Assembly: GCF_008124865.1 (NCBI RefSeq)
Contig: NZ_VNHY01000001.1
Coordinates: forward strand, 806,001 to 870,000
DNA from: Fodinibius salinus
GTDB lineage: Bacteria; Bacteroidota; Rhodothermia; Balneolales; Balneolaceae
Direction: 5' to 3'
Length of the DNA: 64,000 nt
The position numbers and the translations under genes are program-made. The notes under the pieces are model-generated. The model had not been told where the DNA came from. It worked only from the letters and a program-made list of their open reading frames with translations, and did not search any database. Below are positions 44,146 to 49,959 of this stretch, one piece after another (the first letter of the stretch is position 1; every line of letters starts with the position of its first letter).

Positions 44146-45564
44146 ATGAATAATAGCAAATTTCGCAAGTATGCTCACGAATTGGTCGACTGGATGGCCG
44201 ACTATTTTGAAGAAGTCGAAGAATATCCCGTAAAGCCAGACGTACAGCCGGGTGATATTTTACAGCAGCTTCCTAATTCAGCTCCCGAGCAAAGTGAGTC
44301 ATTTGACTCCATCTTCGAGGATTTCAATGATACTATTATACCAGGTATGACCCACTGGGAAAGCCCTAACTTTATGGGCTACTTCCCCGCAAACAAAAGT
44401 TATCCATCGGTGCTGGCCGAAATGCTGACGGCAACACTCGGCGCCCAGTGCATGAGCTGGCTGACCTCCCCTGCTGCCACCGAACTTGAAGAACAGGTAA
44501 TGGTATGGTTGCGCAAACTCATTGGCATGCCGGAATCATTTACGGGTGTCATACAAGGTACCGCTTCTACTTCTACCCTTTGCGCACTGCTGATGGCCCG
44601 CGAACAGATTACCGATTTTGAGGTTAACGAAACCGGATTTCCCAGCGATGAACAGTTCACCGTTTATTGTTCTGCAGAAACACATTCCTCTATCGAAAAG
44701 GATGTAAAGATTGCAGGCTTTGGCCGGAGACATCTGCGTAAAATTCCTGTGGATAAGAATTTTGCCATGCAGCCGAAGAAGCTGGAGCAAGCAATTCGCA
44801 GTGACCTTGAAGACGGATACTCACCCACTGCTGTTGTAGCTACCGTCGGTACAACCGGATCTACAGCCATCGACCCACTGCAAGCAATTGGTGAAATTTG
44901 TACAAAATATGATGTATTCCTGCATGTAGATGCAGCCTATGCCGGTACAGCACTTATTCTTCCTGAAAACCGCTGGATGAATGAAGGCATAGAACATGCT
45001 GATTCTTTTGTATTTAATCCTCACAAATGGATGTTTACCAATTTTGACTGTTCAGCATTCTATGTTCAAGATGAAGCACTGCTGGTACGCACCTTTGAGA
45101 TTATGCCGGAGTATCTGAAAACTCCCGAAGATCAGCGCGTTAAAAACTATCGCGACTGGGGTATTCCGCTGGGACGACGTTTCCGAGCTCTCAAACTCTG
45201 GTTTGTACTGCGAAGTTTCGGGGTTGAGGGATTGCAGGAAAAAATTCGTCACCATATTTCTCTGGCGCAAAATCTAAAAGACAAGATTCAACAACATAAC
45301 CATTTTGAAATGCTGGCTCCGGTACCGCTAAATACACTATGTTTTCGATTCCATCCGAATTATATAGATGATGAAGAAAAACTTGATGAACTGAATGAGA
45401 AACTGCTCAACACCATACAGAAAAGCGGTGAACTTTTTTTAACACATACCAAACTGGGTGGGTCTTATACCATCCGTATGGTACTGGGCAATACTAATGT
45501 AACAGAAACGCATATGAAAAAAGCTTGGAAACTAATCACAGAAAAAGCCAATCAATTACTGTGA
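44146..45564 (+). CDS. PLP-dependent aromatic amino acid decarboxylase family protein
   Basis: About 472 residues. The family's N-terminal helix-strand MADYFEEVEEYPV and PGMTHWESPNFMGYFPANK are clear. The PLP-contact aspartate lies in HVDAAYAGTA and the Schiff-base lysine in NPHKWMF, a signature of group II decarboxylases (DOPA, tyrosine, tryptophan). The substrate is not fixed by the sequence. I use ATG 44146; an earlier TTG at 44122 would add eight residues. It is the last of a run of divergent single genes. Confidence 0.9.
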   Translation: MNNSKFRKYAHELVDWMADYFEEVEEYPVKPDVQPGDILQQLPNSAPEQSESFDSIFEDFNDTIIPGMTHWESPNFMGYFPANKSYPSVLAEMLTATLGAQCMSWLTSPAATELEEQVMVWLRKLIGMPESFTGVIQGTASTSTLCALLMAREQITDFEVNETGFPSDEQFTVYCSAETHSSIEKDVKIAGFGRRHLRKIPVDKNFAMQPKKLEQAIRSDLEDGYSPTAVVATVGTTGSTAIDPLQAIGEICTKYDVFLHVDAAYAGTALILPENRWMNEGIEHADSFVFNPHKWMFTNFDCSAFYVQDEALLVRTFEIMPEYLKTPEDQRVKNYRDWGIPLGRRFRALKLWFVLRSFGVEGLQEKIRHHISLAQNLKDKIQQHNHFEMLAPVPLNTLCFRFHPNYIDDEEKLDELNEKLLNTIQKSGELFLTHTKLGGSYTIRMVLGNTNVTETHMKKAWKLITEKANQLL

Positions 45565-45683
45565 TGAATATGTCTCAACCACTTAACTGACAAAACTGCT
45601 ATTTGTAGGAAATGAATTCCATCGGTATGTTGCTATCCAATTATGAAATACAGCAATAATGCTAAATAAAGAAATTCAATTTT

Positions 45684-46388
45684 ATGCAGTTATCAGATAT
45701 TCAGGCACTGGTTACCGGCGGAAGCTCAGGCATCGGAAGAGCAACAGCTAAAATGATTATTGAATCTGGTGGCGAGGCAGTTATTGCCGCCCGAACCAAA
45801 AGCAAGCTAGAACAAACCGCAGAAGACATTGGGGCTATTCCCATTCAATGTGATGTGGGTGACGAGCAGCAGGTAGAAGAGCTCATCCAGAAAACAGACA
45901 AACAGCTGGATAACTATAATGTTCTTATCAATAATGCAGGCTATGGAAGTCACAAAAAGCTGATAAATGTTTCTGCGAAAGAAATGGAAGATCAACTACA
46001 AACCAATACTATCGGTGCTATGATGGTGGCCCGTGAATCGGCTAAGGTTTTTATTGATAATGATTACGGCAATATTGTCAACGTTTCCTCTTCTTCGGGA
46101 AAACGCGGATATGCCGGCGGTACTTCGTATGTAGCCAGCAAGTTTGCCCTCAGCGGTATGACCCAGTGTTGGCGCGCCGAGCTTCGTCCTCATAACATCC
46201 GGGTGATGCAAGTGAATCCCAGTGAGGTGCAAACGCCTTTTTTTAGTGACGGGCACGAAATAGAACGCGATATCAATGAAACCAAACTTGTTGCTGATGA
46301 TATTGCCCAAAGCATCTGCGATATGCTGGGTATGCACGACCGCGCCTTCATTACTGAAACCAGTGTATGGGCTACCAATCCCAAATAG
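45684..46388 (+). CDS. short-chain dehydrogenase/reductase
   Basis: A 234-residue classical SDR. The cofactor motif VTGGSSGIGRATA is at the N-terminus, NNAGYGS is the stabilising motif, and the catalytic pair lies in SYVASKFALSG after a serine (VSSSSGKRG). It probably uses NADP because the loop after the second strand carries AARTKSK with basic residues. The substrate is unknown. The next gene starts 17 bp later on the same strand. Confidence 0.88.
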   Translation: MQLSDIQALVTGGSSGIGRATAKMIIESGGEAVIAARTKSKLEQTAEDIGAIPIQCDVGDEQQVEELIQKTDKQLDNYNVLINNAGYGSHKKLINVSAKEMEDQLQTNTIGAMMVARESAKVFIDNDYGNIVNVSSSSGKRGYAGGTSYVASKFALSGMTQCWRAELRPHNIRVMQVNPSEVQTPFFSDGHEIERDINETKLVADDIAQSICDMLGMHDRAFITETSVWATNPK

Positions 46389-46405
46389 ATTTCTAGTTAT
46401 ACTTT

Positions 46406-47122
46406 ATGCTAAGAAAAAATCCATTTTTAAATAAGGTAACAATAACTCTATTGTTATTGAGTTTTGTTGGTCTATTATTACATTATTTTGACATTTTAAG
46501 TGCGTCTGTTCTTAAGATTTATTTTGGCGGGACATTCACGGGACTTTTTCTGGGATTATCAATTCAATTATATTATAGTCTCGTAAATCCCTCCGATTGG
46601 TTATTTCAAAGCAGATATCATATAGAAGGAGCAATCTTGGGTGGAAGTATTGGTTCTTATAGCCTGACAAAATACTCCTTTAGTAATGGGCTTGTGAATA
46701 TTTTCGAGATAATCATTCCTCTTGTAGTCGGCTTAATTTTGGGAATATCCTGGATTAAAAGTGCCAAATATAGAACACTGAAAGACTGGAAAGGTAATTT
46801 AATTCAGCAAAATACGGATAATATTATTTTTAGTGACGCTGGTACTCTTACTGATCCAAATCACTCAAATACTAAGGGCACGGTGATGCTCACCCAAAAT
46901 GAAATTATTTTTTCTCCTTCTAATGCGCAAAACCACAAAATAAGAACTGATTTATCCGAAATGAACCCTCTACTCGAAAAATCCGGGTTTGATTTTTTTA
47001 GCATACCAACTGGTATTCAACTTACCCAAGAACGCAGTATACATCCATACAAGTTTCCACGATACTGGCTGGAAAAAATTCGCAATATTCGTTCTGGGAT
47101 TGAGTACTATGATGGATCATAA
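46406..47122 (+). CDS. membrane protein of a tandem pair with a PH/GRAM-like C-terminus (copy 1)
   Basis: A 238-residue protein I do not recognise. About four hydrophobic segments (residues 10-30, 36-58, 70-90, 95-115) precede a soluble C-terminal half. Between the second and third segments is the stretch SLVNPSDWLFQSRYHIEGAI, matched in the next gene by SVINPPQWLFTYRYILEGIL. The C-terminal half begins GTVMLTQNEIIFSP and ends with FSIPTGIQL and KFPRYWLEKI, with a strand pattern like PH/GRAM lipid-binding domains. This is by eye only. It follows the SDR by 17 bp and may share its transcript. Confidence 0.6.
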   Translation: MLRKNPFLNKVTITLLLLSFVGLLLHYFDILSASVLKIYFGGTFTGLFLGLSIQLYYSLVNPSDWLFQSRYHIEGAILGGSIGSYSLTKYSFSNGLVNIFEIIIPLVVGLILGISWIKSAKYRTLKDWKGNLIQQNTDNIIFSDAGTLTDPNHSNTKGTVMLTQNEIIFSPSNAQNHKIRTDLSEMNPLLEKSGFDFFSIPTGIQLTQERSIHPYKFPRYWLEKIRNIRSGIEYYDGS

Positions 47123-47250
47123 GACTAATATAATGTAAAAAATGCTCTGCGGTTGATCTATTGTGATCTCACTCAGCATACAGAACGAAAGAGAATGTTT
47201 GAGAAGTAGTTTATATATTTATTTCAAAATCAAGTAAACAATTGATCGGT

Positions 47251-47931
47251 ATGTTTGGAGAAAAATCTTGGCTTATAAAAACCTTAGGATTATTTTTTCT
47301 TTTAATTTTACCAATATTGCTAGTACTGTATTTCAATTCTTCGATTTTAAGTATAGGACTCATTTTGCTTGAAGGAGCAGCTGTGGGTCTCATTTTTGGA
47401 TCCATTATCGCATTAATATTTAGCGTAATAAATCCACCCCAGTGGTTATTTACCTATCGATACATTCTGGAAGGTATTCTCTGGGGGCTTATGATTGCAA
47501 CTACAAGTTTATTCGTTACTACCAGTGAAGAGTCACTGAGTATGAGTAAGGCTGTATTTACAACTCTATTCTGCAGCGGAATGGGTGTACTTTGGATCTA
47601 TTATTTCAAGTACAAAAAACTACAACAGCAAATGGAAGAATATCTATCTGGTAATTTGGATACGGTAGACCTCTGTGACGTTGCTAACTTTTCGGATCAA
47701 GAATATGATAATAAAAACAGCCTTTTATTATTATCCGCCAGCCATATTCAAATCGTATCAATAGACACTCATAAGAAGCTCGCTGACTTACAATTAAGTG
47801 AAATTAATCCGAAAATAAGAAGGAGAACCTGGTTCAACTTTCCTGCAGGTATCCAATTGTCAAACACTAAAGAGGTGAAAGTGAAATTCCCTCTCTACTG
47901 GTTCAAGAAAATAAGTATGCAAAAAAGATAG
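47251..47931 (+). CDS. membrane protein of a tandem pair with a PH/GRAM-like C-terminus (copy 2)
   Basis: A 226-residue paralogue of the upstream gene. The same segment order is seen: hydrophobic segments, then the motif NPxxWLFxxRY-xx-EG, then a soluble half with LLLLSASHIQIVS, LSEINP and FPAGIQL, ending KFPLYWFKKI. I use ATG 47251; a TTG nine bases earlier is possible. The pair diverged widely in the linker, so the duplication is old. No function is assigned. Confidence 0.6.
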   Translation: MFGEKSWLIKTLGLFFLLILPILLVLYFNSSILSIGLILLEGAAVGLIFGSIIALIFSVINPPQWLFTYRYILEGILWGLMIATTSLFVTTSEESLSMSKAVFTTLFCSGMGVLWIYYFKYKKLQQQMEEYLSGNLDTVDLCDVANFSDQEYDNKNSLLLLSASHIQIVSIDTHKKLADLQLSEINPKIRRRTWFNFPAGIQLSNTKEVKVKFPLYWFKKISMQKR

Positions 47932-47946
47932 GTATGAGATTTTGGT

Positions 47947-48288
47947 TCAAGCCTGCTCAGGATAACACTCCTTACAAGGACACATATCCCGCAGCGTCCC
48001 CCATTGGTACATGCCGTTGTTGTGGCCGTCATTCCAGAAAATCTTGATGGCATGATTCCCAATCTGCTTAATATCTTCTACCTCAAAATTTTGTGTAGGA
48101 TCAACAAAAAACAGCGAACGGTCAAAAGAATTCATATTTCCGTGTCCCCCGCGACAGGTTACGCAAGGACAATTTTTGCGAAGTCCAAAGAGCGGGTATT
48201 CCGAATGGTGTCCATCTGACCATTCAATTTCTAAAACTTGGTCACTATTAGAAACTTCAATTCCTGTAGGTATTACTTGATCTGACAT
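47947..48288 (-). CDS. DUF971 protein (GBBH-like N-terminal domain)
   Basis: A 113-residue protein with the DUF971 layout: WSDGHHSEYPLFGLRKNCPC, then CRGGHG and a second half with IFWNDGHNNGMYQWGTLRDM and CPCKECYPE at the end. The cysteine pairs may bind zinc. The domain forms the N-terminal part of gamma-butyrobetaine hydroxylases, and also exists alone near Fe-S cluster genes; its role here is unknown. The CoA-binding protein gene lies 56 bp upstream on the same strand. Confidence 0.85.
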   Translation of the reverse strand: MSDQVIPTGIEVSNSDQVLEIEWSDGHHSEYPLFGLRKNCPCVTCRGGHGNMNSFDRSLFFVDPTQNFEVEDIKQIGNHAIKIFWNDGHNNGMYQWGTLRDMCPCKECYPEQA

Positions 48289-48344
48289 GTGTTACTTCTG
48301 CACTTAACAGTCTTTACAAAACTGTCAATTAAAATTAAGATTCC

Positions 48345-48764
48345 TTAAGCTACAGCTTTATCGTGCTGTACCATCATGCACTTGTTTTCTACATACTGGT
48401 AGTTATTTTCTTCAGCAAGGCTTTTGGCTTTATCCGAAGAAACCGCCAGCTGGGTCCATATTACCGGTTTTTGGCCACTCTTTTCTGACCAATCAATCGC
48501 CTCCCGCACCATATCAGCTGTGTATTCCGAATCCCGAAAAATATCAACAACATCAATCGTTATATCATCGGGGATATCAGCCATGCTGTCATAGCATTCT
48601 TCACCCAAAACCTCATCATAATTCGGGTTCACCGGAATAATACGAATACCCTGTTCTTGTAAATAATTAGCAATGTGATAACTGGTCCGATATTTATTGG
48701 CCGAACAGCCAATTACAGCAACTGTTTCTACGTTACTTAGAAGTTTTCCTAACTCACTTTTCAT
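48345..48764 (-). CDS. CoA-binding domain protein (YccU-like)
   Basis: A 139-residue Rossmann-fold protein. The CoA-binding motif is VAVIGCSANKYRTSYHIANY near residue 15, followed by IIPVNPNYDEVLGEECYDS and the conserved NKCMMVQH at the C-terminus. Close to the E. coli YccU group, whose physiological role is unknown. It is probably the first gene of a pair with the DUF971 gene. Confidence 0.87.
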   Translation of the reverse strand: MKSELGKLLSNVETVAVIGCSANKYRTSYHIANYLQEQGIRIIPVNPNYDEVLGEECYDSMADIPDDITIDVVDIFRDSEYTADMVREAIDWSEKSGQKPVIWTQLAVSSDKAKSLAEENNYQYVENKCMMVQHDKAVA

Positions 48765-48873
48765 AACTGTTTTTTCTTTTATTATTGACTATCTATTTGA
48801 ACACAGAAGTTACGAGATTCATTTGATTTAACGTATTATTGGATATCAAAATAATTACAGTTTTACTTTCAAG

Positions 48874-49959
48874 ATGGTAACTGCAACCAAACATTTTTTT
48901 CGGAGATATAAAAAATATATTCCGGTACTATTCTTTATCGGCGGATTCACCTGGGATAGCCTCACCCTTGGTCGCATTGACGGCTGGTACAGTAATACCG
49001 TGCTTTTTACTTATCTCATTGGACTCACACTCTGCCTCTACATCTTTAACCTTGCCGATGATGGCCGCTGGCAAAACACGTTTTTAGAACCTTATCAAGA
49101 ATATGCCCCGTTGGCTATACAGTTTTTCCTTGGCGGTCTTTCAAGTGCCTATGTCATTTTCTTTTTCCAGAGTGTTACACTTACTAAAACCCTTGTTTTC
49201 TTTTTGATTCTAGTTGTACTTCTGGTTTCTAATGAGTTACTCAAGCATCGTATTTCAAATAAATACCTACAATTCAGTGCCTACTTCTTTGTCAATTTTA
49301 CATTTTTCACCTTCTTTATACCGGCTATCTTTGCAACCATGAATACCTTTCTGTTTGTGGTATCAGGACTTATAAGCCTTGGGCTTACCCTATATTTTAT
49401 TTATTACCTCTACCGGATAAGTCCTTCTACCCGCCAAGAAATAAGCCGCCGGAAAGTTATAGCCCTTATCCTCGGCATTTATCTGTCTATTAACACCTGC
49501 TACTACTTTAACTTGATACCCCCTGTTCCTCTTTCATTGCAATCCGGTATGGTGGCCTATAATGTTGAAAAGACCAATAATAATTTTTTGGTTTCTTATG
49601 AAAAATCCCCCCTTTTTAAATTTTGGGAATCTTATAAACATACCTTCAACTACACCTCCGGTGATTCTGTTTTTATTTATACCTCAATTTTTGCTCCCAC
49701 AGATCTTGAAAAATCGGTGCAACATCAGTGGCGCTGGCACGATCCCAAATCGGACCAATGGAAAACGACGGATACTATTGCCTACACCGTAGTAGGCGGA
49801 CGTAAAAAAGGATTCCGTGGATACACCTTTAAAAATAATATTTGGCCTGGCAGCTGGCGTGTCAATGTAACTACCGGTGAAGGACTAGTACTCGGGCAAA
49901 TTAACTTCACCGTGGTTGAGGACTCAACCGCTGTCTCTCTAACCAAAAGCAAATTTTGA
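48874..49959 (+). CDS. DUF2914 membrane protein
   Basis: A 361-residue protein. The N-terminal 220 residues hold about seven hydrophobic segments (for example GWYSNTVLFTYLIGL). The C-terminal 130 residues form the DUF2914 domain with QHQWRWHDPKSDQW, AYTVVGGRKKGFRGYT and WPGSWRVNVTTGEG. The domain occurs in many bacteria and its role is not known. It is divergent from the CoA-binding protein gene. Confidence 0.82.
   Translation: MVTATKHFFRRYKKYIPVLFFIGGFTWDSLTLGRIDGWYSNTVLFTYLIGLTLCLYIFNLADDGRWQNTFLEPYQEYAPLAIQFFLGGLSSAYVIFFFQSVTLTKTLVFFLILVVLLVSNELLKHRISNKYLQFSAYFFVNFTFFTFFIPAIFATMNTFLFVVSGLISLGLTLYFIYYLYRISPSTRQEISRRKVIALILGIYLSINTCYYFNLIPPVPLSLQSGMVAYNVEKTNNNFLVSYEKSPLFKFWESYKHTFNYTSGDSVFIYTSIFAPTDLEKSVQHQWRWHDPKSDQWKTTDTIAYTVVGGRKKGFRGYTFKNNIWPGSWRVNVTTGEGLVLGQINFTVVEDSTAVSLTKSKF

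Follow-up and report, generated by a model that had tools for sequence, protein, structure and literature searches.

Membrane-anchored PH-like domains of bacteria have already been described: the accessible portion of PMC2817789 presents families (DUF304/bPH_2, DUF1200 and DUF2244) that combine TM helices with a PH-like domain predicted to be cytosolic, and proposes that such proteins assemble into ring-like oligomers that work as transporters or pores. Two such genes can lie side by side, as with ddE and ddF, both of which the cell needs to export enterocin DD14 and which are similar to ydbS/ydbT of B. subtilis; a resistance function is listed for YdbT without experimental support (PMC8657885, in the part available). 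PH-domain proteins also recur in leaderless bacteriocin clusters, according to the excerpt at hand of PMC11580447. Strings of non-identical polytopic membrane proteins are known as well from the TsaI (DUF443) immunity proteins of Staphylococcus aureus (PMC9484751, as far as its available text goes). In addition, membrane-anchored GRAM proteins (PF02893; e.g., P0004 of a congener) consist of one or more hydrophobic segments followed by a GRAM-type tail; judging by title and the start of the abstract, no paper among those listed by our literature search describes a bacterial GRAM membrane family.

The locus analyzed here lies in a 64,000-nucleotide stretch of the Fodinibius salinus genome (hereafter, the window) and contains two adjacent genes for membrane proteins (Table 1). 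Taken together, the evidence below indicates that this pair is a lineage-specific variant of the known bacterial membrane-anchored GRAM/PH proteins and no new kind of system.

Table 1. Positions in the window of the gene pair, its parts and the flanking genes.
Feature	Position	Strand	Description and basis
SDR gene, upstream neighbor outside the feature	45684..46388	+	Pfam adh_short 3.9e-50
Copy 1 (P0001)	46406..47122	+	238 aa, ATG start; ORF and translation
Conserved loop NPSDWLFQSRYHIEG of copy 1	46586..46630	+	residues 61-75, between predicted TM2 and TM3; alignment
GRAM-like tail of copy 1	46787..47101	+	about residues 128-230; 105 aa as folded alone
Copy 2 (P0002)	47242..47931	+	229 aa from TTG; architecture as copy 1 by alignment
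GRAM-like tail of copy 2	47632..47928	+	99 aa
Downstream gene, right border of the variable slot	47947..48288	-	113 aa; orthologue at 75-89% identity in 11 of 11 congeners

A sequence-only reading of the window had proposed paralogous tandem genes with shared hydrophobic segments and common motifs, and the ORFs, BLASTP and alignment bear this out. The two copies, each hydrophobic in its N-terminal half, are homologous (a single BLASTP comparison aligned 199 aa at 28% identity, E 1e-24) and are separated by 119 bp with the TTG start of copy 2, or by 128 bp with an alternative in-frame ATG at 47251 that yields 226 aa. In the pairwise alignment, the loop motif NPxxWLFxxRYxxEG reads VNPSDWLFQSRYHIEGA in copy 1 and INPPQWLFTYRYILEGI in copy 2, and the KFPxYWxxKI stretch reads KFPRYWLEKI and KFPLYWFKKI, respectively. 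The claimed FPxGIQL motif holds for copy 2 (FPAGIQL), whereas copy 1 has I instead of F (IPTGIQL), leaving PxGIQL as the common form. Although 9 of the 15 loop columns are identical between the copies, when the identity positions were re-ordered 20000 times, 6045 of the arrangements contained an equally dense stretch of 15 columns, indicating that the loop is no hot spot beyond chance clustering. In a repeat search of positions 45500-49000, all direct repeats were short (17-19 nt, each present twice) and none amounted to a long DNA repeat between the copies, suggesting that the duplication is old or that the copies arrived separately. An Rfam search of 45500-48900 gave no match; promoter-like and terminator-like sites numbered 6 and 4, compared with shuffled means of 9.9 and 2.4.

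The AlphaFold2 model of copy 1, calculated from the two-row alignment, contains helices at residues 6-27, 31-60, 62-91 and 99-138, followed by a few strands and a C-terminal helix, with a mean pLDDT of 48.5 over the full length and values below 50 throughout the tail. Basic residues are found at the N-terminus and directly after TM4, the last hydrophobic segment, and the natural reading would be four TM helices with both the N- and the C-terminus in the cytosol. Hydrophobicity, charges and the helices of this low-confidence model are compatible with TM helices plus a cytosolic PH-like domain, the sidedness being predicted.

In keeping with the sequence-only reading, which recognized neither protein, no Pfam or NCBIfam model reached its cut-off for either copy. 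The Pfam GRAM model matched residues 150-217 of copy 1 below its cut-off (13.4 bits, E 0.069; cut-off 23.6 bits) and did not match copy 2; we therefore refer to the tails as GRAM-like, and not as members of Pfam GRAM. Since the GRAM model also gave sub-cut-off matches at E <=0.1 in 5 of 14 control genomes, the Pfam match of copy 1 is not specific by itself. Matches to Pfam Vps36 (copy 1, E 0.15) and to MASE10, PIRT, DUF3021, AbrB-duplication and MotS models in Pfam/NCBIfam were all under cut-off. The Pfam scan accepted E up to 10, but its filters remove most matches above about E 0.1, and with this restriction neither bPH_2 (DUF304) nor DUF443 was among the matches of the pair. PDB sequences and PADLOC yielded no match, and PHROGs yielded weak matches only (best E 0.053).

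Stronger evidence came from membrane proteins of related genomes. Of 394 phylum genomes, three have a GRAM protein above the Pfam cut-off, and each of these proteins carries, as judged by eye, one or two hydrophobic segments at its N-terminus. A tail profile built from these three proteins and the window pair, when run on 244 genomes of the class, matched in five (the window's own genome included) and brought in one further such protein (L077) and one tandem pair (L078). A second profile comprised six GRAM membrane proteins and left out the window pair, three of its members (P0009, P0010 and P0011) having come from a search whose profile included the pair; it gave 14.7 bits for copy 1 and 8.8 bits for copy 2, scores exceeded by 0 and 2 of 10,000 shuffles, respectively. 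Of the three recruited members, P0010 exceeds the Pfam GRAM cut-off by itself, P0011 has a weak GRAM match (0.044) and the GRAM match of P0009 (0.18) ranks behind two other families. When 455 distinct ORFs (at least 100 aa; 81 sources) were ranked by this profile, the six training members came first, followed by copy 1, copy 2 and then the next ORF at 6.0 bits. Comparison of the pair with the six proteins by hhalign gave a probability of 84% and a score of 42.2, compared with 28.2 for the best of 300 shuffles and 19.7 for the reversed sequence. Because of how half of the six were recruited, a comparison of the tails only with the three original GRAM proteins is cleaner, though weaker (17%, score 23.9; best of 300 shuffles 20.8), and an earlier profile-profile comparison of the pair with these three was weak (35% or 15%, depending on direction). 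Finally, an eight-row profile matched in 6 of the 394 phylum genomes, namely the window's own, the three with known GRAM proteins and two others, whose ORFs (118 aa and soluble; 166 aa with two TM segments) appear by eye to be GRAM-type. As judged from these profile comparisons, the pair is distantly homologous to GRAM-type membrane proteins.

The same data do not support the suggestion that bacterial membrane proteins seldom carry GRAM/PH tails, since proteins that join N-terminal hydrophobic segments to GRAM are present in the genus, the class and the phylum and since membrane-anchored bacterial PH domains had already been described (PMC2817789, in the portion available). The two genes of L078, which lie in another genome of the class, are arranged in tandem (1255-1749 and about 1965-2459). 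The ORF upstream of them is presumably topoisomerase-like.

Modelled alone, the tail reached a pLDDT of 54.6 (33-42 for the other four models), and the order of elements in this low-confidence model (four strands and a short helix, then an unclear stretch and finally a C-terminal helix) fits a PH beta sandwich with its C-terminal helix cap. Foldseek returned 659 matches, none at E <=0.001 and the best at 0.1; those listed include Lam6 PH-like, MTMR2, Vps36, neurobeachin PH, FACT subunits and Sin1 PH, and the best 50 of the 659 are, as we take it in part from their titles, mostly PH-type. VIA-align likewise listed PH, PTB, FERM-F3, Ran-binding and GLUE chains with Z up to 7.2, values that, being below 8, are no proof, since a common arrangement alone is compatible with them. 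The best 50 VIA-align matches are, again partly by title, presumably mostly PH-type, and SsgA/SsgB, also among those listed, we take not to be PH. MTMR6 and Vps36/GLUE were also among the structure matches listed. For the proposed PH/GRAM-like C-terminal tail, structure prediction gives a fitting order of elements and mostly PH-type chains among the matches listed, but at a low pLDDT, with Foldseek E-values no better than 0.1 and Z no higher than 7.2. Combined with profile scores above those of shuffles, these weak matches make a PH/GRAM reading of the tail likely, and the proposal was probably right.

These results also bear on the alternative that the pair is an orphan membrane family and that the likeness of its beta-rich tail to GRAM/PH is due to chance. 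Such an origin would accord with the lack of a curated family above cut-off, the low confidence of the structure models and the weak first profile comparisons, but it would have to explain why the profile scores beat shuffles and why the pair ranks behind the training members among real ORFs, and we consider it unlikely. In contrast, we are quite confident that the two proteins have a four-TM architecture and a GRAM/PH fold.

An alignment of all eight proteins indicates where the pair departs from the other GRAM proteins. Both share the pattern G-x-x-x-L-T...F...L-S-x-(I/M)...P-x-G-I-x-L...F...W, which is seen chiefly in copy 1; the pair, however, has neither the GG of the other proteins nor their N/R-R ahead of W, and scores under the Pfam cut-off. 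The other proteins start near TM3 of the pair, which has about 70 more N-terminal residues that would form an additional TM hairpin, i.e., two more TM helices, and that include most of the NPxxWLFxxRY loop. In Pfam, NCBIfam and PHROGs, this extra part is covered by no family above cut-off, and the predicted hairpin with its loop distinguishes the pair from known GRAM membrane proteins. The suggestion of an undescribed family is thus correct insofar as no model exceeds its cut-off, but not insofar as the pair is a variant of known GRAM/PH membrane proteins.

Searches with the pair matched 3 of 394 genomes of the phylum, 3 of 92 of the family and, at E up to 1, 7 of 12 of the genus, and a search with copy 2 matched 3 of 244 of the class; these genome sets overlap. 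Two of the three matches in each of the phylum, class and family sets were due to chance. The genus matches include the window's own genome, three judged to be due to chance and three (L009, L010 and L011) at E 0.12-0.15. Apart from chance matches and L009-L011, these sequence searches found the pair only in its own genome within the four sets. The matches rejected as relatives after inspection of their ORFs were L004 (presumably TPR/SH3-type), L005 (a frame that contains stops and overlies an ORF we take to be ABC-permease-like), L007, L008 and L012 (presumably NuoE-like), L039 (presumably sugar-transferase-like) and L040 (a 147-aa ORF in what we take to be a flagellar operon). No relative was confirmed among 26 pattern matches in viral contigs or among 112 and 115 in two scans of a genome contig collection, the first of which used one protein as query and detects close relatives only. 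Plasmids queried with copy 1 only and phages queried with copy 2 only gave no match.

The genomic setting of the pair is variable. All 11 congeners keep the SDR gene at the same locus, together with the downstream gene, which we take to be DUF971-type, and all lack the pair. The interval between them (46389-47946 in the window) is a variable slot: it is empty in four congeners (no ORF >130 aa of its own; one overlapping ORF was taken as spurious) and filled in the other seven with ORFs of about 770 aa (presumably peptidase-like), about 365 aa or 361 aa. Aligning the slot ends with two empty congener sites revealed divergence too high to name borders. The GC contents of the two copies, 0.342 and about 0.35 (0.349-0.351), are the lowest among the 42 window ORFs of at least 200 aa, whose median is 0.428. 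Occurrence in a single genome, a variable slot and the lowest GC are what would be expected if a single lineage had acquired the pair or if the pair had diverged there very fast; GC and distribution suggest that it was probably acquired recently. The site of this entry, or of this extremely fast divergence, would be the slot flanked by the SDR and DUF971-type genes.

The same comparison speaks against the earlier proposal that the pair may act with the SDR; presenting it with a lipid or hydrophobic substrate would be one example of such a role. The shared strand and the 17-bp gap between the SDR gene and copy 1 would suit such a partnership. However, all 12 genus genomes contain the SDR (66-71% identity in the 11 congeners), and the linkage check in other genomes found the pair beside it in none of the 11; moreover, the slot behind the SDR gene is empty or holds other genes, as described above, and the GC content of the SDR gene (0.462) does not match that of the copies. 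The tie to the SDR is therefore unsupported, and we regard it as highly improbable.

Just past the DUF971-type gene, all 11 congeners encode a different membrane protein, 233-246 aa long, whose tail is weakly DUF5673-like. A search of 89 family genomes detected this protein in 78 but not in the window's genome, in which the corresponding interval is the gap 48288-48345. The pair is not a diverged form of it (hmmsearch <1 bit, hhalign 0.3%), and it showed no link to the GRAM profile (hhalign 0.4%). Non-orthologous replacement, in which the four-TM GRAM pair would have taken over an envelope job of the lost protein, is improbable in our estimate; it would be one case, and 10 other family genomes without the 233-246-aa protein (several of them incomplete) also lack the pair.

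Returning to the reading of the pair as membrane-anchored GRAM/PH proteins, the likeness to described systems extends from the predicted combination of TM helices with a cytosolic PH-like domain to the adjacency of two such genes, as in DdE/DdF and YdbS/YdbT. Nevertheless, the pair has no bPH_2 match, has one predicted PH domain per protein in contrast to three in YdbT and DdF, and has no recognized bacteriocin or ABC exporter genes nearby (comparison limited to the available parts of PMC2817789 and PMC8657885). By analogy, the C-terminal GRAM/PH-type domain would pack onto the membrane from the cytosolic side and bind lipid headgroups or make homo- or hetero-oligomers, and the two copies might form a membrane assembly through which the envelope withstands, or exports, membrane-active agents. 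Inspection of the flanking ORFs by eye recognized neither a bacteriocin gene nor one for an exporter or a stress protein, and the role consequently rests on analogy; a function in protection or export is a tentative proposal. The explanation as a whole, that of a GRAM/PH pair in the cytoplasmic membrane, acquired or diverged in one lineage and serving in such an assembly, is one we moderately favor.

The main rival is that the pair provides orphan immunity, guarding the cell against membrane-targeting toxins of competitors with a tail that binds the toxin or its receptor. Divergent paralogues in tandem, a single-genome occurrence, the lowest GC of 42 ORFs and a variable gene slot could all be expected of immunity genes, and TsaI, with tandem divergent copies of a polytopic membrane protein, provides a precedent (PMC9484751, in the text available). 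TsaI differs, however, in having five predicted TM helices, compared with four in the pair, and by eye, no toxin-like ORF was recognized among the ORFs flanking the pair. Moreover, PADLOC gave no match, no immunity model of Pfam/NCBIfam exceeded its cut-off, and DUF443 was not among the Pfam matches, within the filter limit of that scan. Orphan immunity thus seems rather unlikely.

For the little-studied membrane-anchored GRAM/PH proteins of bacteria, the pair adds a predicted four-TM variant in tandem, and the second pair in the class (L078) indicates that tandem GRAM copies occur more than once. The pair also illustrates how far GRAM-type tails can drift under curated cut-offs. If the protective or export role is true, the theme of DdE/DdF would extend to another bacterial group.
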